A DNA stretch of 64,000 nucleotides, taken from contig CANLWY010000003.1 of assembly GCA_947494995.1 (NCBI GenBank), positions 62,001-126,000 on the forward strand, in the 5' to 3' direction. Under the pieces are notes generated by a model, which saw only the letters and a list, made by a program, of their open reading frames with translations, made no database searches and had not been told where the DNA came from. Made by a program: the position numbers and the translations under genes. Source of the DNA: an uncultured Campylobacterales bacterium (GTDB lineage: Bacteria > Campylobacterota > Campylobacteria > Campylobacterales > Arcobacteraceae). Shown here piece after piece: positions 34,841-43,598 of the stretch. Position 1 is the first letter of the stretch; the number at the start of each line of letters is the position of its first letter.

Positions 34841-34925
34841 AGATATTCCTTAATAATTTAAGATATTATTGTATCAGAATACTCCTTGAAGCTTGAAAGT
34901 AAATTTAAAACAAAAATAAAACATA

Positions 34926-34942
34926 TTTGAAACAATTTTGAC
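34926..34942 (+). promoter_or_regulatory. TTTGAAACAA element upstream of the kinase-regulator pair
   Basis: TTTGAAACAATTTTGAC contains one full copy and one half copy (TTTTGA) of the 11-bp repeat found twice before the TAXI gene at 38353. It lies 31 bp before the kinase start. Autoregulation by the encoded response regulator is a reasonable inference. Confidence 0.5.
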
Positions 34943-34972
34943 TTTTTTGTAAGTTTTTCGTTAAGATATTGT

Positions 34973-37600
34973 ATGGATTCAAAAAAGCAAAAAAAAATCT
35001 ACGACTTAGAATATATTCAAAATATATTTAGAGTTATTCCTTTGACATTTATTCTTATTCTTTCTATTGTTTCAATATTTATTACTTATGTGATTATAGA
35101 AGCTAAACAAAATCGTGAATTGGACTTGATTTTTCAAAAAGAGCTTTTGCATAATGAGTTTGATAAAAAAGAGATTCTTTTTGATTTTTCATCAAAAATA
35201 AATCAAAGGCTTGATAATGAGTTATCAAAGATAAATAAGGTTTTACAAGAGCATACTTATAAGATAATAGGAAGTTTAGATAACAACCATAAGGCTTTGA
35301 GGTTTGATAGTACAGTTGAATTTTTGGAAAAATATGAAAATGAAAATGGTGTAGATATTGTACTTTTTGAGAAAAAGAAATCAAATATTGTTTATGGACA
35401 CGATAAAATAGTTTTTCTTTCAAAACTAATCTTTGGTAAATATGATGATACTTATAAAAAGATAGTTTTACAGTATATCTATTCACAAGGAAGATATAAC
35501 CTTCAAGAGTGGAAAAATGACCTTACTGGTGCACTTAGACTTAGTTTTTTTGATTTACTTAAAATTGATGGTAAAGAGTATTATATAGGAACTTTTTCAA
35601 AGTTAGAAAATATTCGCTTTATCACTAAAAATTTGATAATAGATGAGATTGATAATTTAGATAAATCGGAAGATTTCTCTATTTGGTTTTTTGATATGAT
35701 TACAAAACTTACTTATAATTTCAATGGCAATAAAAAGTATGATAATCTAAATGTTCTTCTTTCTAAAGAGTATAATAGTATGAAATATGATATTTTGAGA
35801 TATTATGGTTCAAATGAAGAAACCAATAAAGCCTTTAATAATTATTCTTTGTATAATAACAAGTTTAAATTTTTATTCTCTATTGAATATGATAAAAATG
35901 TCTTTATAGATGAAAAAAGTATAAAAGATAAATATCATTCTTTATTTATAACGATAAGTTCTTATATTGTTTTAATAGGAGCTTTGTTTATACTGTTTTC
36001 ACTTCTTTTTTCAAATCTTACAAGAAAGATTTTGGATAGGTATAATAAAGAACTTCAAGATAGAACAGATTCTTTAACACACTGGAAGAATAGATTTGAG
36101 TTGGCAATTATTGCTTCAAACGATGGTTTATGGGATATTGATTTTGAAACAGAAGAGATTTATTTTTCTGATAAATGGCTTGAAATATCAGGATATGAAG
36201 AAGGAGAGGTTAAGAAGTTTTCAGATTGGTTTGCACTAATCCATAAAAATGAAAAACCACAAGTTGAAACTATTTTTGAAGAAATCTTTGCAAATAAAAG
36301 AGATGATTTTATGTGTGAGTATAGACTAAAAACTAAAAATGATGGTTTTAAGTGGATACTTGGACGTGGAAGACTCTTTTTAGATAAAGATACTGGACAT
36401 AAAAGAATGCTTATGATGTCAATGGATATTGATAAAAACAAGCGTCTTAAAAAAGAGCTTTTAGATGTAGAACTTCTTGTTGAAGATGGCAAAATTGTCC
36501 TTTTTAAACTATTTAATGATGATAGTCTTAGTATAAAATATATTTCAAATGCCATTAAAAACTATGGATACAATAAACAGATATTTGAAAATGGCGAAAT
36601 GAACTTTTTAGACTTAATCTATAAAGAGGATATAAATATTGTAAAAGTTGCATTAAATGCAGCCCTTAGTCAAGATCTAAGTGATTTTACCTTTGTTTGT
36701 AGAGCATTAAATGCGGCAAATGAGATAAGATGGATATCTTGTAGAACCTTACTTTTAAAAGACCATTCTGGAAATGTGGTAAATTTTTATGGATATATAA
36801 ATGATATTACAAAGATTAAACTAAGTGAACAAGAGTTAAAACTAAAAGTAGAAGATGAATTAGAAAAGAATAGAAGGAAAGATAGAATTCTGATTCAACA
36901 AAGTAAGTTAGCAGCCATGGGTGAGATGCTTGGAAATATTGCACATCAATGGAGACAGCCACTTAATAATGTATCTTTGTTTTTACAGTTTTTAAAAGAT
37001 AATTATAAAAATGAAAATTCAAATGAAGTGATGGTAAATAAGTATTTTGATAAATCATTTACTCAAATACAGTATATGTCTCAGACAATTGATGATTTTA
37101 GAAATTTTTATAGACCTTCAAAACAAAAAACTTATTTTACAGTAGAACATGCTCTTAGTTCTACAATAGAGATAATTAAAGCTCAACTAAAAAATGAAAA
37201 TATTGAGTTGATTGAAAATATTGAAGATGTGGAAGTTTTAAGTTTTGAAAATGAGTTAAAACAAGCCTTTTTAAATATATTAAGTAATGCTATAGATGCA
37301 ATAAAACAAAAAAGAGAAAAACATAAATTCGAAGCTTATGTAAAAATAGATGTTGAAAGCTGCGAAAACCTTGTTAATATAAAGATTGAAAACAATGGTG
37401 GAGAGATAAAAGAAGAAGTAATATCAAGAGTTTTTGAACCATATTTTACAACAAAGTTTGAATCTCAAGGGACAGGAATAGGTTTATATATGACGAAGTC
37501 AATTATTGAAACAAATATTAAAGGTAAAATTGAAGTTTGTAATATAAAAGATGGTGTGTTTTTTATGATAAGATTACCTTTATATAGTGAGGAGAAGTAA
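34973..37600 (+). CDS. PAS-containing sensor histidine kinase of the TRAP locus
   Basis: An 875-residue membrane kinase. Helices at ~18-40 and ~325-347 enclose a ~280-residue periplasmic sensor, probably Cache-like. Two cytosolic PAS domains follow (ELAIIASNDGLWDIDFETEE to about 505; ILFK... to about 625), then a coil, the H-box GEMLGNIAHQWRQPLNNVSL, N-box AFLNILSNAIDAIKQ, G1 IKIENNGGEIKEEVISRVFE and G2 GTGIGLYMTKSIIE. It overlaps the regulator gene by 1 nt (TAATG). The adjacent TRAP importer suggests it senses the imported carboxylate directly or with the binding protein. Confidence 0.92.
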   Translation: MDSKKQKKIYDLEYIQNIFRVIPLTFILILSIVSIFITYVIIEAKQNRELDLIFQKELLHNEFDKKEILFDFSSKINQRLDNELSKINKVLQEHTYKIIGSLDNNHKALRFDSTVEFLEKYENENGVDIVLFEKKKSNIVYGHDKIVFLSKLIFGKYDDTYKKIVLQYIYSQGRYNLQEWKNDLTGALRLSFFDLLKIDGKEYYIGTFSKLENIRFITKNLIIDEIDNLDKSEDFSIWFFDMITKLTYNFNGNKKYDNLNVLLSKEYNSMKYDILRYYGSNEETNKAFNNYSLYNNKFKFLFSIEYDKNVFIDEKSIKDKYHSLFITISSYIVLIGALFILFSLLFSNLTRKILDRYNKELQDRTDSLTHWKNRFELAIIASNDGLWDIDFETEEIYFSDKWLEISGYEEGEVKKFSDWFALIHKNEKPQVETIFEEIFANKRDDFMCEYRLKTKNDGFKWILGRGRLFLDKDTGHKRMLMMSMDIDKNKRLKKELLDVELLVEDGKIVLFKLFNDDSLSIKYISNAIKNYGYNKQIFENGEMNFLDLIYKEDINIVKVALNAALSQDLSDFTFVCRALNAANEIRWISCRTLLLKDHSGNVVNFYGYINDITKIKLSEQELKLKVEDELEKNRRKDRILIQQSKLAAMGEMLGNIAHQWRQPLNNVSLFLQFLKDNYKNENSNEVMVNKYFDKSFTQIQYMSQTIDDFRNFYRPSKQKTYFTVEHALSSTIEIIKAQLKNENIELIENIEDVEVLSFENELKQAFLNILSNAIDAIKQKREKHKFEAYVKIDVESCENLVNIKIENNGGEIKEEVISRVFEPYFTTKFESQGTGIGLYMTKSIIETNIKGKIEVCNIKDGVFFMIRLPLYSEEK

Positions 37601-38310
37601 TGAACCAAAGAGTTACAAGAGCTTTATTAGTAGAAGATGAAGAAGATGCAAGAGAGATATTAGCTTTTTATTTAGATACAGTTTTTGATGAGGTTGAAGT
37701 TGCCTCAAATGGACAAAAAGGCTTTGATAAGTTTCTAAAAAACAAAGAAAAAAACAAGTTTTTTGATGTAATAGTTACTGATATTCAAATGCCACAAAAA
37801 GATGGACTAACTATGCTTGAAGAGATAGCACAGATTAGAGAAGAACAAAAGTTTATTATAGTATCAGCATATAAAGATGAAGAGTATCTTTTTAGGTCAA
37901 TAAATTTAAATGTAATAAGCTATTTTGTAAAACCACTTGTTGTAGAGAATATTATGCAAATACTAAAAAAAGTCAAAAAGTCTATTTTGGAAACAGCACA
38001 AATAGTTCCTATAACTGTAGATGATAAACCAGTTAAAATAAATTCTATATATACATATGACAAATCAAAAAAACTATTATACGATGGAAAAGAGATTGTA
38101 AACTTATCTAAAAAAGAGACTCTACTAGTTGATGCAATGATTGTAAAAAAAGGTGAAATTAATACAAATGAAACACTTAAAAAAGCAGTTTGGGATGACA
38201 CTAATACTTCAGATGCAACACTTCGTACTGTTATTAAAAGAGTAAAAGATAAAATTGCCAAAAATGACTTCATTGTTTCAAAAAAAGGTTTAGGATATAT
38301 TGTTGAGTAA
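37600..38310 (+). CDS. OmpR-type response regulator of the TRAP locus
   Basis: A 236-residue regulator. REC domain: ALLVEDEEDAREILAFYLDT (acidic pair), DVIVTDIQMPQKDG (phospho-Asp), IIVSAYKDEEY and ISYFVKPLVVEN (switch residues). C-terminal winged helix: VNLSKKETLLVDAMIVKKGE, ATLRTVIKRVKDKIAKNDFI. Two tandem 11-bp repeats lie 43 bp downstream, before the TAXI gene, and a related element precedes the kinase gene. These repeats are its likely binding sites. Confidence 0.93.
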   Translation: MNQRVTRALLVEDEEDAREILAFYLDTVFDEVEVASNGQKGFDKFLKNKEKNKFFDVIVTDIQMPQKDGLTMLEEIAQIREEQKFIIVSAYKDEEYLFRSINLNVISYFVKPLVVENIMQILKKVKKSILETAQIVPITVDDKPVKINSIYTYDKSKKLLYDGKEIVNLSKKETLLVDAMIVKKGEINTNETLKKAVWDDTNTSDATLRTVIKRVKDKIAKNDFIVSKKGLGYIVE

Positions 38311-38352
38311 AAAATATACCCAAAAAATGGGAGTTTCTAAATAAATTTCATA

Positions 38353-38384
38353 TTTTGAAACAATTTTGAAACAATTTGGAAAAA
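38353..38384 (+). promoter_or_regulatory. Tandem TTTTGAAACAA repeats before the TAXI gene
   Basis: TTTTGAAACAA occurs twice in direct tandem (38353-38363 and 38364-38374) and a decayed third unit (TTTGGAAAAA) follows to 38384. A -10-like TTATACT lies just after (38391). The 11-bp period suits an OmpR-type dimer binding upstream of an activated promoter; the regulator is encoded directly upstream. Confidence 0.7.
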
Positions 38385-38426
38385 TCTATGTTATACTTTC
38401 ATTGTAAAACAAAAAGGGAGATTACA

Positions 38427-39443
38427 ATGAAATTAAACTTACTTAAAAAACTAGCTGTTTCATCTTTAGTTGCAGCATCATTAGTTACTGTTGCAAGTGC
38501 AAAGAAAGCTGAGCAAAAATATGTTATTGCTACTGCAAGTACAGGTGGAACTTATTATCCAGTGGGAGTTGGGATTGCAACTATTGCATCTTTAAAATTA
38601 GCAAAGAAAAATAAACTTACTTTTTCAGCTATTACATCTGCAGGTTCTGGGGAAAATGTAGATATGTTAGAAAAAGGCGAAGTTGATTTTGCAATTTTAC
38701 AAGGTCTATTTGGTTCAATGGCTTGGCAAGGTAAAGCTAAATATGAAGGTCAAGCAAAGAAAAATCTAAGATCAGTATCTATGTTATGGCAAAATGTTGA
38801 GCAATTTACTGTTAAAAAAGATTTTGCAAAAACTGGAAACGTAATGGATTTAAAAAATCTTTATGGTGAGAGGTTTTCTATTGGTGGAAGATCTTCAGGT
38901 TCAAGAGTTTCTGCTGAAACAATTATGAGTTCACTTGGAATAGAATTTGATAAAATGAATATCCAATATCTAGGGTATACTCCAAGTTCAACTGCACTTC
39001 AAGATGGAAAAGTTCAAGGGATGAATACTCCATCAGGACCACCAACATCTGCTGTTACAAATGCATTTGCTTCTATTGGTAATGACAAAATTAGAGTATT
39101 AGATTTTGATGCAAATAATTTAAAAGCAATTAATGATAACTATCCTGTATGGACTCCATTTACAATTAAAGCTGGAACATATCCAGGTCAAAATAAAGAT
39201 ATCAATACAATTGCACAACCAAACTTATTAGTTGTAACAAAAGATACTTCAGAAGAGACAGTATATTTATTAACAAAAACTATTTATGAGAACTTACCAT
39301 TCTTAAATACAGTACATAAAGCTACAAAAGCAATGTCTTTAGAAAAAGCAATTGCAGGACTTCCAATGCCTCTACACCCAGGTGCGGCAAAATTCTATAA
39401 AGAAAAGGGAATTAACATTCCAGCTTCTTTAATAGCTAAATAA
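38427..39443 (+). CDS. TAXI-family TRAP transporter solute-binding protein
   Basis: A 338-residue periplasmic binding protein with a signal peptide (MKLNLLKKLAVSSLVAASLV, cleavage near VASAKK). The TAXI signature is IATASTGGTYYPVGVGIATI; further marks are FAILQGLFGSMAWQG, ERFSIGGRSSGSRVSAETIM and the C-terminal GLPMPLHPGAAKFYKEKGI. ATG 38427 follows GGGAG; an in-frame ATG at 38376 lies within the operator and has no signal peptide. A hairpin follows the gene, which could raise its expression relative to the permease. Confidence 0.94.
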   Translation: MKLNLLKKLAVSSLVAASLVTVASAKKAEQKYVIATASTGGTYYPVGVGIATIASLKLAKKNKLTFSAITSAGSGENVDMLEKGEVDFAILQGLFGSMAWQGKAKYEGQAKKNLRSVSMLWQNVEQFTVKKDFAKTGNVMDLKNLYGERFSIGGRSSGSRVSAETIMSSLGIEFDKMNIQYLGYTPSSTALQDGKVQGMNTPSGPPTSAVTNAFASIGNDKIRVLDFDANNLKAINDNYPVWTPFTIKAGTYPGQNKDINTIAQPNLLVVTKDTSEETVYLLTKTIYENLPFLNTVHKATKAMSLEKAIAGLPMPLHPGAAKFYKEKGINIPASLIAK

Positions 39444-39449
39444 TATAAA

Positions 39450-39477
39450 TTTAAAAGGAGTTTACACTCCTTTTAAA
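39450..39477 (+). terminator. Intercistronic hairpin between TAXI and permease genes
   Basis: TTTAAAAGGAGT / ACTCCTTTTAAA, a 12-bp perfect stem with a 4-nt loop, 7 nt after the TAXI stop. It may partly terminate transcription or protect the upstream mRNA so the binding protein is made in excess over the permease. Confidence 0.6.
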
Positions 39478-39561
39478 ACTTACTATTTTATAAACTATAT
39501 AAGTGATTTCCAATTGTTTATGTAGTTTATATTCTTATTGAATTAATTTGAGGGATGAATA

Positions 39562-41511
39562 ATGATTAAGATTAAATATTTTAAAGAGATTACTTTTGTT
39601 TACGCAATTTTTATCTCACTATTTCACTTTGGGATAAATATTTGGGGTGGTTTGAGTGACCTTTGGTTTAACTCAGCACATTTTGCTCTTTTAGCTTCAC
39701 TTGGGTTTTTAACTTTTGAAGCAAATAAAAATGATAATGAAGTATCTATAGTAAATTTAATTTTTGCAGTAGGTTCTTTAGTGACATTTTTTTATATGAT
39801 GGCATTTGAAGAGAGTCTTTATGCTGTTGCTAATGGACAAATGAGAACAAGTGATTTAGTAATTGCATCTCTAACTATTATTTTAGCAATTGAGATGGTT
39901 AGAAAATCTACAGGATATGTAATACCAGGTATTATTGTTTTTTGTATTGCTTACTTACTGTTTTTAGGACAACACTTTGAAGGTGTATTTGCTTTTGCTG
40001 GTATGAGCCCTGAAAGATTTTTATATAGAATGTTCTATACAAATGAAGGTTTATTTGGTCCAATTGCTACAATATCTTCAACATATGTATTTATGTTTAT
40101 TTTATTTGCAGCTTTTTTATTAAAATCAGGAGCAGGGGATTTTATTGTTGATGTTGCCAATGCAGTTGCAGGAAGATATACCGGTGGAACTGGACATGTT
40201 GCTGTTATATCATCTGCTATGATGGGTACTATTTCAGGTTCAGCTGTTGCAAATACAGTATCTACTGGATCTATTACAATTCCTATGATGCAAAAAGCAG
40301 GTTTCAAATCAAAGTTTGCAGCAGCTGTGGAAGCAGCAGCAAGCACAGGAGGACAAATTATGCCTCCTATTATGGGTGCAGGGGCTTTTATTATGGCTCA
40401 GATGACACATATTCCTTTTGTAACTATTATCTCAGTATCTGTTTTACCTGCAATTTTATATTTTGCATCAATTGCATTTTATATTAATATTCATGCAAAA
40501 GAGCACAATGTAAGAGGTGAAAAATCTGATGTGAAAATCTTACCTATTTTAAGAGAAGGTTTTCATTTTATTATTCCCTTATCAACTTTAGTTGGATTAT
40601 TGATTTATGGGTTTACCCCTACGTATTCAGCAGGAATTGCAATTGTAACTATTGTATTAGCTTCTTATCTTACAAAAAATAAAAGAATGGGAATAAAAGA
40701 GATACTAGAAGCTTTGGCTCTTGGAAGTAAAAATATGATTGTAACAGGTGTACTGTTAATTGCTGTTGGTATCATTGTTGGTATTATCAACATCTCTGGT
40801 ATTGGTATTACTTTTTCACAGTTAATCATGGAATGGTCAGGAAATTCACTTTTAATAGCTATTATTTTAGTTGCAATAGCTTCACTTATTTTAGGTATGG
40901 GATTACCTGTTACAGCTTCTTATGTTGTATTATCAGTATTATCTGCACCTGCACTAGTTGGTCTAATGCTTAGTCCTGAAATGGCAGCACTTGTAAATGC
41001 AGGTATTCAGATTCCTGAGGTAACTATGTACTTATTATCAGCGCATTTGATAATATTCTGGTTATCACAAGATTCAAACCTTACTCCTCCTGTGTGTTTA
41101 GCAGCATTTGCAGCAGCAGCTATTGCAAAAACACCACCTATGGCTACTGGTTTAACTTCTTGGAAAGTAGGAAAGGGAATGTATATTATTCCACTTCTAT
41201 TTGCTTTTACTCCACTTGTAAATGGTACTTGGTTTGAAAGGTTTGAAATATTTGGTTTTGCATTATTTGGAATAATGTGCTTTTCTATCGTAATGGAAGG
41301 ATATTGGGATAGAAAAATGAGTATTTTAGAAAGATTAGTATTTGCCGTTGCAGCAGTGTTACTTCTTACAACTGATAGTATTTTTGATATGGAGAGTTTC
41401 TTTGGAGTTGTACAAAACACTCATATTGTAGGATTTGGAATTTTTGCTGTATCTATGGTACTTCATAAGATGCTTTCAAAAGAAGAAAAAAAATATGCCA
41501 AAAGTATATGA
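39562..41511 (+). CDS. TRAP transporter fused permease (DctQ-DctM type)
   Basis: A 649-residue inner-membrane protein with about 17-18 helices. The first ~110 residues correspond to the small DctQ-like subunit, and the rest to DctM, as usual for TAXI systems. Signatures: GGTGHVAVISSAMMGTISGS, AVANTVSTGSITIPMMQKAG, EAAASTGGQIMPPIMGAGAF, GMGLPVTASYVVLSVLSAPA. Full length. It uses the sodium gradient with the TAXI binding protein. The downstream gene is L-2-hydroxyglutarate oxidase, which suggests a C5 hydroxy-dicarboxylate substrate, by context only. Confidence 0.94.
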   Translation: MIKIKYFKEITFVYAIFISLFHFGINIWGGLSDLWFNSAHFALLASLGFLTFEANKNDNEVSIVNLIFAVGSLVTFFYMMAFEESLYAVANGQMRTSDLVIASLTIILAIEMVRKSTGYVIPGIIVFCIAYLLFLGQHFEGVFAFAGMSPERFLYRMFYTNEGLFGPIATISSTYVFMFILFAAFLLKSGAGDFIVDVANAVAGRYTGGTGHVAVISSAMMGTISGSAVANTVSTGSITIPMMQKAGFKSKFAAAVEAAASTGGQIMPPIMGAGAFIMAQMTHIPFVTIISVSVLPAILYFASIAFYINIHAKEHNVRGEKSDVKILPILREGFHFIIPLSTLVGLLIYGFTPTYSAGIAIVTIVLASYLTKNKRMGIKEILEALALGSKNMIVTGVLLIAVGIIVGIINISGIGITFSQLIMEWSGNSLLIAIILVAIASLILGMGLPVTASYVVLSVLSAPALVGLMLSPEMAALVNAGIQIPEVTMYLLSAHLIIFWLSQDSNLTPPVCLAAFAAAAIAKTPPMATGLTSWKVGKGMYIIPLLFAFTPLVNGTWFERFEIFGFALFGIMCFSIVMEGYWDRKMSILERLVFAVAAVLLLTTDSIFDMESFFGVVQNTHIVGFGIFAVSMVLHKMLSKEEKKYAKSI

Positions 41512-41589
41512 GTTAGAAAGAGTAGGGATATCTACTGTAAAAATGTAGATAGAATAAAAATTGGAATAAATAAAAAGTAGGATGTTAAA

Positions 41590-42780
41590 ATGTATGATTA
41601 TCTAATAATTGGGGCTGGAATTATTGGACTTAATATTGCTAAAAATTTAAAAGAAAGATTCCCTGAATCAAAAATTTTAGTATTAGAAAAAGAGAAAGAA
41701 GTTGCTTTGCATAGTAGTGGTAGGAATTCAGGTGTATTACATGCAGGGTTTTATTATACTGCTGATTCATTAAAAGCAAAGTTTACAAAAGAAGGAAATG
41801 CTGCTTTAAAAGAGTTTTGTAAAAACAGAGGTCTAAAAGTAAATGAGTGTCAAAAAGTTGTAGTAGCTCAAAATGAATCTGAACTAAAAGGTTTAGAAGA
41901 GTTAAAAAGAAGAGGCGATGTAAATGGAGTAGAGCTTATTTGGCTTGATGAAAAGAGACTTGAAGAGTTATATCCTAATGTAAGAACACATGAAAAAGCG
42001 CTTTTATGCCCTTCTACAGCAACTGTAAATCCAAGTGAGGTTACTCGAGAGTTTGCAAAGGTTTGTAAGGAGATTGGGGTAGAACTTATTTTAGATTGTA
42101 AGTATGAATCTAGTGAAGGTAATAAAATTATTACATCAAAGGGTGAGTTTATATCTAAAAAAATAATAAACTGCGCAGGTCTTTACGCAGATAAAATTGC
42201 AAATGATTTTGGTTTTTCAAAAGATTATGTAATTATTCCTTTTAAAGGAATATATTTAAAAGATCATGAAAATAAAGCACAATTAAAGACAAATATTTAT
42301 CCTGTACCAAATCTTGATAATCCATTTTTAGGAGTTCATTTTACTCTTACAGTTGATAATGAAGCAAAAATAGGACCAACTGCAATTCCTGCTTTTTGGA
42401 GAGAAAATTATAAAGGCTTTTCAAATTTTAATATAAAAGAGTTTTTCCAAATTATATATTATGAAACAAAACTATTTCTTACAAATGCTTTTGGATTTAG
42501 AGAATTAGCATTTACAGAAATTCAAAAGTATTGTTTTGCTTATTTAAAAGCTTTAGCAAAAGACTTAACTCAAAATATGGATAATGTAGGTTTTGATCAA
42601 TGGAGTACACCAGGAATTAGAGCACAGCTTTTAAATAAAAAAACATTAGAGCTAGTACAAGATTTTGTTGTAGAATCTGATAAAAATTCAGTTCATGTAT
42701 TAAATGCTGTAAGTCCAGCATTTACTTGTTCAATTCCTTTTGCAAATTGGGTAGTTGAGGAGTATGTTATAGATAAGTAA
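41590..42780 (+). CDS. lhgO: L-2-hydroxyglutarate oxidase/dehydrogenase
   Basis: A 396-residue FAD-dependent enzyme oxidising L-2-hydroxyglutarate to 2-oxoglutarate, passing electrons to the respiratory chain or oxygen. FAD-binding GxGxxG: YLIIGAGIIGLNIAKNLKE; family marks HSSGRNSGVLHAGFYY, NCAGLYADKIANDFGF, PFKGIYL, GVHFTLTVDNEAKIGP and the C-terminal LNAVSPAFTCSIPFANWV. It lies 78 bp behind the TRAP permease in the same direction, with only a weak hairpin between (ATCTAC/GTAGAT), so it is probably part of the same regulon. Product 2-oxoglutarate would enter the TCA cycle. Confidence 0.92.
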   Translation: MYDYLIIGAGIIGLNIAKNLKERFPESKILVLEKEKEVALHSSGRNSGVLHAGFYYTADSLKAKFTKEGNAALKEFCKNRGLKVNECQKVVVAQNESELKGLEELKRRGDVNGVELIWLDEKRLEELYPNVRTHEKALLCPSTATVNPSEVTREFAKVCKEIGVELILDCKYESSEGNKIITSKGEFISKKIINCAGLYADKIANDFGFSKDYVIIPFKGIYLKDHENKAQLKTNIYPVPNLDNPFLGVHFTLTVDNEAKIGPTAIPAFWRENYKGFSNFNIKEFFQIIYYETKLFLTNAFGFRELAFTEIQKYCFAYLKALAKDLTQNMDNVGFDQWSTPGIRAQLLNKKTLELVQDFVVESDKNSVHVLNAVSPAFTCSIPFANWVVEEYVIDK

Positions 42781-42842: not shown

Positions 42843-43598
42843 ATGTCTTACATAAAATTAAATTCAGAAAATATTTTTAATGAACATATATGTTGTGCTT
42901 TTTCAGATAAAAAGTGTAAAGATGGTTATGAGGCAAAGAAACATTGGTTAAACTCTCAGTTTGAAAAAGGTTTTGTTTTTGAAAGGTTAGATGAAAGAGC
43001 AAAGGTTTTTATGGAAACAGTACCTTTAAAAGATGCTTGGGTTCCTGTAAATGAAGCTAATTATCTTTATATTGGATGCTTTTGGGTTAGTGGAAAATAT
43101 AAAAAGCAAGGACATGGAAAAAAACTTCTTGAAAATGCAATAATAAGGTGTAAAGAAAACTCTATTGATGGTTTAGTAACTATTGTAGGTAAAAAGAAAT
43201 TTCATTTTATGAGTGATACTAAATGGTTATTAAAACAAGGTTTTGAAGTAGTAGATGAAACAAGTGATGGTTTTGTACTCTTAGTTTTAAAACTTAAAAA
43301 AAGTGCTATAAATCCAAGTTTTAAGGATAGTGTACACAAGCAAGATATTAGCACTAAAGGATGTGTGGTTTATTTTTCAAATGGATGTCCTTATAGTGAG
43401 TATTATATTAATGAATCTCTTGTAGAACTATGTAAAAAGAAGAAGATATCATTAGAGATAAACAAAATAGATAGTTTAGAAAAGGCTCAAAACTCACCAA
43501 CACCTGCTACAATATTTTCATTGTTTTATGAAGGTAAATTTATTACAACAGATATAAGTGTTTGTATTGAGAGTAAATTTAATAAGTTAGTAAAGTAA
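42843..43598 (+). CDS. GNAT acetyltransferase with YoaP-like C-terminal domain
   Basis: A 251-residue two-domain protein. The N-terminal GNAT domain shows the acetyl-CoA loop in YIGCFWVSGKYKKQGHGKKL (Q/RxxGxG/A: QGHGKK). The C-terminal ~100 residues match the YoaP domain, thioredoxin-like, with CVVYFSNGCPYSEYY and a single remaining Cys of CxxC. The combination is known as GNAT-YoaP; its substrate is unknown. Own promoter: TATAAT at about 42821. It converges with the LysR gene, 2 nt apart. Confidence 0.85.
   Translation: MSYIKLNSENIFNEHICCAFSDKKCKDGYEAKKHWLNSQFEKGFVFERLDERAKVFMETVPLKDAWVPVNEANYLYIGCFWVSGKYKKQGHGKKLLENAIIRCKENSIDGLVTIVGKKKFHFMSDTKWLLKQGFEVVDETSDGFVLLVLKLKKSAINPSFKDSVHKQDISTKGCVVYFSNGCPYSEYYINESLVELCKKKKISLEINKIDSLEKAQNSPTPATIFSLFYEGKFITTDISVCIESKFNKLVK

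Follow-up and report, generated by a model that had tools for sequence, protein, structure and literature searches.

The window analyzed here comprised 64,000 nucleotides of an uncultured Campylobacterales bacterium of the family Arcobacteraceae (GenBank assembly GCA_947494995.1, contig CANLWY010000003.1, positions 62,001 to 126,000 of the forward strand). All coordinates without a locus prefix are those of the window. Genes for a sensor histidine kinase, an OmpR/PhoB-type response regulator, a TAXI-type TRAP solute-binding protein, a fused TRAP permease and LhgO, an L-2-hydroxyglutarate oxidase/dehydrogenase, stand in a row on its plus strand. TAXI, permease and LhgO genes recur together in relatives, and their reading as a conserved uptake-and-oxidation unit is well supported. 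Judged from sequence, the unit is predicted, with a probability of roughly 70%, to import L-2-hydroxyglutarate, and probably 2-oxoglutarate too. In the periplasm, the TAXI protein would catch the C5 acid and pass it to the permease, and LhgO would then turn L-2-hydroxyglutarate into 2-oxoglutarate, with electrons probably going to quinone. The kinase would detect the acid, either directly or via the loaded TAXI protein, and phosphorylate the regulator. The regulator would sit on two 11-bp direct repeats that replace a -35 element and turn the TAXI promoter on.

Genes of the unit and identity of the oxidase

An earlier note on this DNA had named the same five genes in this order, and its assignment was confirmed by open reading frames, curated family cut-offs and domain matches. 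The kinase (34973-37600; 875 residues) carries PAS_3, HisKA and HATPase_c domains after an N-terminal region with no Pfam match. The regulator (37600-38310; 236 residues) consists of a receiver (Response_reg) and a Trans_reg_C domain, the composition of OmpR/PhoB-type proteins. The TAXI protein (38427-39443; 338 residues) scored 294.7 bits against TIGR02122 (cut-off 84.35), the fused DctQM-type membrane protein (39562-41511; 649 residues) 596.5 bits against TIGR02123 (cut-off 320.65), and LhgO (41590-42780; 396 residues) 335.9 bits against NF008726 (cut-off 299). The ATG at 38427 was taken as the TAXI start in preference to the mechanical open reading frame start, TTG 38376, because of a ribosome-site-like AAGGGAGA and a signal peptide, both judged by eye. 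The genome of 3.17 Mb holds four TAXI matches above the TIGR02122 cut-off, and the locus is on its contig 3.

The naming of LhgO in the earlier note was borne out by the family score and by the substrate contacts. Fly L2HGDH (dmL2HGDH) is reported to contact 2-oxoglutarate via Ser88, His92, Tyr289, Leu299, His302 and Arg393 (PMC10726252). On alignment all six were matched in the window's LhgO, by S47, H51, Y237, L247, H250 and R344, the last being the equivalent of the arginine that pairs with the C5 carboxylate. LhgO of the E. coli csiD-lhgO-gabDTP operon is described as making 2-oxoglutarate from L-2-hydroxyglutarate, with electrons passed to quinone (PMC6265302). In E. coli, CsiD makes the L-2-hydroxyglutarate internally from glutarate (PMC6265302), whereas the window's genome has an importer and no CsiD. 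CsiD was found in none of the 104 family genomes searched, the window's own included, while an E. coli positive control was detected. The CsiD-LhgO glutarate pathway, which calls for csiD in the genome, was not found here.

A divergent LhgO-like protein might instead oxidize another 2-hydroxy acid, which the importer would carry. Such a role would agree with a score little over the cut-off and with an identity of 32-37% to gammaproteobacterial LhgO. It is nevertheless considered very improbable, as all six dmL2HGDH contacts are kept, including the arginine that pairs with the C5 carboxylate, and high-scoring LhgO stands at the same place in relatives.

Linkage of importer and oxidase in relatives

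The 104 family genomes were searched for TAXI, LhgO, permease, LUD-domain and kinase sensor-region matches, and the coordinates were then crossed. The TAXI matches listed in the family numbered 150, comprising 30 of the window's clade and 120 others. Twenty-four of the 26 above-cutoff LhgO genes had a clade TAXI gene at a distance of no more than 7 kb (22 at no more than 4.5 kb), and none of the 26 was close to one of the 120 TAXI places listed outside the clade. Counted from the 30 clade TAXI genes, LhgO was present at 26 (partial and below-cutoff copies included), the permease at 28 and a LUD-domain gene at 25.

Beyond the family, at least 574 relatives were confirmed. The best 80 were used, all assigned to Gammaproteobacteria from their record titles and with 68-99% identity to 9ibp, the solved TAXI protein VCA0144 of Vibrio cholerae. 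Gene clusters of these 80 loci were built on mechanical open reading frames of at least 100 residues, and 75 of the loci were represented in the TAXI cluster. An LhgO-cluster gene was present in 34 of the 80. It stood right after the permease on the same strand in 30, further on in L073, L075 and L111, and on the opposite strand in L074. NCBIfam scores of 609.9 and 612.5 bits were obtained for the two of these LhgO proteins that were scanned. Adjacency of TAXI and LhgO in relatives had been set beforehand, in the earlier note, as the point on which its proposal could fail, and the adjacency stood in both groups (26/30 and 34/80).

The gammaproteobacterial loci differ in their control. One regulator cluster, NtrC-type as judged from the member scanned, was represented in 48 of the 80 loci and in 30 of the 34 that have LhgO. 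A strict sigma-54 pattern was sought from -350 to +80 around the mechanical start of 76 TAXI open reading frames, so that some matches lie 3' of the start. It occurred at 32 of 43 TAXI genes with a regulator of the NtrC-type cluster and at 1 of 33 without, against a background of 40 in 6420 windows. Because the pairing also occurs under this different regulator, importer and oxidase either stayed paired or were paired twice while the control system differs.

Two side observations concern LhgO elsewhere. Comparison of Vibrio lhgO with plasmids gave 170 records, 14 at 80-90% identity and 156 at 60-80%. In the family, three TAXI genes of a different group (G117:C1:2357679, G036:C5:19724, G113:C15:143869) lie some 3 kb from a weak match to the LhgO profile (62-64 bits) and may represent a further pairing of importer and oxidase.

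In family relatives the unit is extended by a LUD-domain gene. A 198-residue protein with a single LUD domain (PF02589; two members scanned) is encoded after the permease in L035-L045, L163 and L166. The gene had no match in the window's genome or in G108 and G094, and is therefore not essential to the unit. Among the LUD places listed for the family, 15 of 40 were away from the window's TAXI clade, and in G020 the LUD gene (L141:1498-2163) stands apart from TAXI, next to another gene, of 394 residues or more. A chemotaxis receptor gene lies between permease and LUD gene in two loci (L045:11336-13243 and L043:5966-7876; MCP domain scanned for L045 only) and may tie the ligand to chemotaxis. 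A YoaP-domain gene 3' of LhgO in the window (42843-43598) was rejected as a member of the unit after zero tblastn matches in 14 loci. No relatives of the TAXI protein were found among viral contigs.

Ligand of the TAXI protein

A structure model of the TAXI protein (predicted local distance difference test score 87) matched 9ibp best, with Z 45.2 and a root-mean-square deviation of 1.3 over 309 aligned residues. Ranks 1-6 of the fold search were TAXI or TAXI-like proteins (Z 45.2 to 30.7) and rank 7 had Z 16.0, which places the protein within the TAXI fold. The 9ibp entry, released 2025-12-24, is the nearest solved protein, at 55-56% identity; its title gives no ligand, and its locus group has the NtrC-type regulator, unlike the window's unit. 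In Vibrio metoecus, a copy 99% identical to VCA0144 has an LhgO-cluster gene right after the permease.

The glutamate TAXI proteins VcGluP (VC0430) and TtGluBP have the same fold (Z about 31) and share Tyr, Ser, Gln and Glu pocket residues with the window's TAXI protein, but differ by an insertion of two residues close to the Glu and by other residues at the positions of Y200 and M201, at 29-31% identity. Pocket residues Y45, S75, Q93 and E125 described for VcGluP (PMC11574862) align with Y44, S75, Q93 and E126 of the window's protein (numbered from codon 38424; one less when counted from the ATG). Since the glutamate contacts are kept, the TAXI sequence cannot distinguish glutamate from the hydroxy and oxo analogs, and the pocket residues were rejected as a decider of the ligand.

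Position 44, in the same numbering, corresponds to Tyr45 of VcGluP, which is described as contacting the amino group of the ligand (PMC11574862), and was compared with the presence of LhgO. In the family (28 of the 30 clade members), Tyr was found in 24 of 24 loci with LhgO and Phe in three of four without (Fisher p 0.0012, post hoc and uncorrected for kinship). In Gammaproteobacteria, LhgO was missing from 3 of 4 loci with Phe and from 42 of 71 with Tyr, and the residue was dropped as a marker of LhgO for want of a clear link.

A TAXI system of Proteus mirabilis has been reported for 2-oxoglutarate and 2-hydroxyglutarate (PMC12344293), with alpha-ketoglutarate also named as the ligand of a P. 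mirabilis TAXI-TRAP system (PMC11574862). Such a unit was thus already known in kind, and the expectation in the earlier note of a first substrate of this type for a TAXI system was overtaken. The Proteus system (membrane component PMI1055; Roden et al. 2023) is described as a TAXI protein with a membrane component, as in the window, whereas the window's unit has LhgO and a two-component system built in; this comparison is by description and not by sequence. Among the titles and abstract openings listed in literature searches, none was found that joins TAXI with LhgO or TAXI with co-sensing by a kinase. New here are the clade-wide evidence, the LUD gene of relatives that is missing from the window's genome, and the link of sensor and TAXI.

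Were the importer mainly for 2-oxoglutarate or glutamate, LhgO could be a repair enzyme for L-2-hydroxyglutarate from intracellular side reactions. The pocket shared with VcGluP fits this, as do the reported uptake of 2-oxoglutarate in Proteus (PMC12344293) and the genomes G008 and G033, which keep TAXI and permease without LhgO. Against it, family LhgO goes with the window's TAXI clade only, with no tie to the other 120 TAXI places listed; importer and oxidase are also paired in Gammaproteobacteria, under another regulator; and a repair enzyme has no need to stand behind an importer. A repair role is therefore considered unlikely.

Several observations also count against the preferred reading, import of L-2-hydroxyglutarate by a regulated importer-oxidase unit. 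Two above-cutoff LhgO genes (in G015 and G062) have no clade TAXI gene nearby. G008 and G033 hold TAXI, permease and LUD but no above-cutoff LhgO anywhere in the genome; the remaining clade members without LhgO, G020 and G102, have no permease at the locus either. In 46 of the 80 gammaproteobacterial loci no LhgO-cluster gene was present in the flanks examined, some of which end at contig ends. The window's LhgO is divergent (336 bits versus about 610 for the two gammaproteobacterial proteins scanned), the TAXI pocket keeps the equivalents of the glutamate-binding residues of VcGluP, and the kinase promoter of the window carries a half site only. Given G008 and G033, the ligand range may be wider than L-2-hydroxyglutarate.

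Tandem operator and sensor kinase

Two exact copies of TTTTGAAACAA (38353-38363 and 38364-38374, plus strand) form a tandem operator of 11-bp period at the -35 place of the TAXI promoter, and a -10 box, TATACT (38392-38397, plus strand), follows 17 bp 3' of it. The earlier note had described repeats before both kinase and TAXI genes. The exact tandem stands before TAXI, but the kinase gene is preceded by one near-copy of the half site only, ATTTGAAACAA (34925-34935, plus strand; 10 of 11 positions), and the second half there is degenerate. TTTTGAAACAA occurs in exact form a third time on the minus strand at 38273-38283, within the regulator gene, over the codons of its IVSKKG end.

As a lone motif the 11-mer was rejected, with 21 matches at no more than one mismatch against 14.0 expected and equally high counts in 5 of 100 shuffles. 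The tandem 20-mer is not a chance occurrence. In simulated sequence (2 Mb, trinucleotide frequencies, one strand) it had 0 matches at up to two mismatches and 2 at up to three. The window's own genome has one exact site, at the TAXI promoter, and 11 more with two or three mismatches; a reversed-pattern control gave 5.

The operator scan covered the window, the orthologous loci L035-L046 (12 in number) and, from another TAXI clade, L047 and L048. The 20-mer was present with at most one mismatch 5' of TAXI in 12 of 12 orthologous loci having their own TAXI promoter (the window and L035-L045), and the tandem site claimed as an operator in the earlier note is accepted as real. In L046 the TAXI gene abuts the regulator gene and the 20-mer sits 5' of the kinase instead. 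L047 and L048 had no match. Further sites with at most one mismatch were located before TAXI in L154, L162, L163 and L166, and L153 (G102) had none at up to three. Before the kinase gene, sites with no more than three mismatches were found in L039, L040, L041, L042, L044, L045, L046, L155, L163 and L166 and not in the window, L035, L038 or L162; the kinase promoter was outside the sequence examined for L036, L037, L043 and L154.

TATACT or TATAAT stood 17-18 bp 3' of the repeat in the 16 promoters inspected by eye, an automated pattern having mostly caught an overlapping TGTTAT. We take this geometry to be like that of PhoB-class activation. The conserved tandem repeats stand at the operon of the OmpR-type regulator itself and are its predicted binding site, from which the phosphorylated regulator would activate transcription. 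A sigma-70 scan was discarded as uninformative (54 found versus 48.8 in shuffles). A stem-loop of 12 pairs between the TAXI and permease genes (39450-39477, strand not assigned; consensus scan only) may set the ratio of TAXI to permease expression.

Residues 41-326 of the kinase, the N-terminal region with no Pfam match, appear periplasmic by eye. Five profile matches in the PDB (E 0.024 to 0.61; to interleukin-10 receptor and a UBX protein) were taken as chance. In the family, this sensor region gave 55 matches in 44 of the 104 genomes, 49 of them with a TAXI gene at a distance of 12 kb or less. Matches of at least 37% identity were near the window's TAXI clade in 21 of 23 cases, and weaker ones were near other TAXI genes, of a group scoring about 334-373 bits, in 28 of 32. 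The six matches with no TAXI nearby were either broken or located at the end of a contig (G090 C11, G032 C109, G024 C19, G007 C76, G018 C72 and C264).

Members of two genera, G020 and G102, hold the kinase-regulator-TAXI trio without permease and LhgO. In G020 (L046, L165) an orthologous permease is missing; the best match of that genome is 36% identical and lies beside another TAXI gene. G102 (L153) had no permease match in its genome, which is weaker evidence because that genome is 86% complete. Neither genome had an above-cutoff LhgO. The G102 kinase (634 residues) has lost the PAS part and kept the sensor region, and its trio (L153:1127-8159) stands among genes that we presume, from their likeness, to be for polyamine synthesis. 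Both TAXI genes are intact. Pairwise ratios of nonsynonymous to synonymous substitution (dN/dS) involving them were about 0.13-0.22, versus about 0.14-0.19 among four others. A TAXI tree was made with every sixth of 72 gammaproteobacterial rows of 300-380 residues; L044 was excluded from alignment A3. Branches of G020 and G102 were longer (0.36 and 0.26) than the rest (0.014-0.12), and the two did not cluster with each other, in a poorly resolved part of the tree. Position 97 is Ala in both and Gly in 26 permease-bearing family members and all 72 gammaproteobacterial rows.

It is tentatively proposed that the TAXI protein, when loaded with ligand, serves a dedicated kinase family as co-receptor, a signaling role that would have been freed from transport on one or two occasions. 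The trios of G020 and G102 hint at a TAXI protein retained for signaling after loss of transport; slow decay would also fit. The nearest precedent is BctCDE of Bordetella, where, according to a review, a two-component system likewise stands beside a binding-protein-dependent secondary importer and the binding protein is required for signaling (PMC5812351). BctCDE is a TTT-family system for citrate with a TctC-type protein, whereas the window's system is TRAP-TAXI and known from gene linkage.

The chances are about even that the kinase detects the ligand directly by its own periplasmic domain, with the TAXI protein outside signaling. The large N-terminal region of the kinase would provide for this, and the permease-less TAXI genes, on their long branches, may be decaying. 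Direct detection accounts less readily for the 49 of 55 sensor-region matches that have a TAXI gene no more than 12 kb away, and for two relatives that retain the trio without a permease at a TAXI dN/dS well below 1.

TAXI systems are widespread and few of their ligands are known. The clade to which the window's importer belongs spans the family and the Gammaproteobacteria, includes a solved member with no ligand named in its title, and is linked to LhgO, which gives a short list of candidate ligands. In E. coli, L-2-hydroxyglutarate is an intermediate of lysine degradation; if the preferred reading of an L-2-hydroxyglutarate importer is true, the compound would gain a role as an external food. 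The link of sensor and TAXI genes, together with the permease-less trios, makes signaling by TAXI proteins a testable question.

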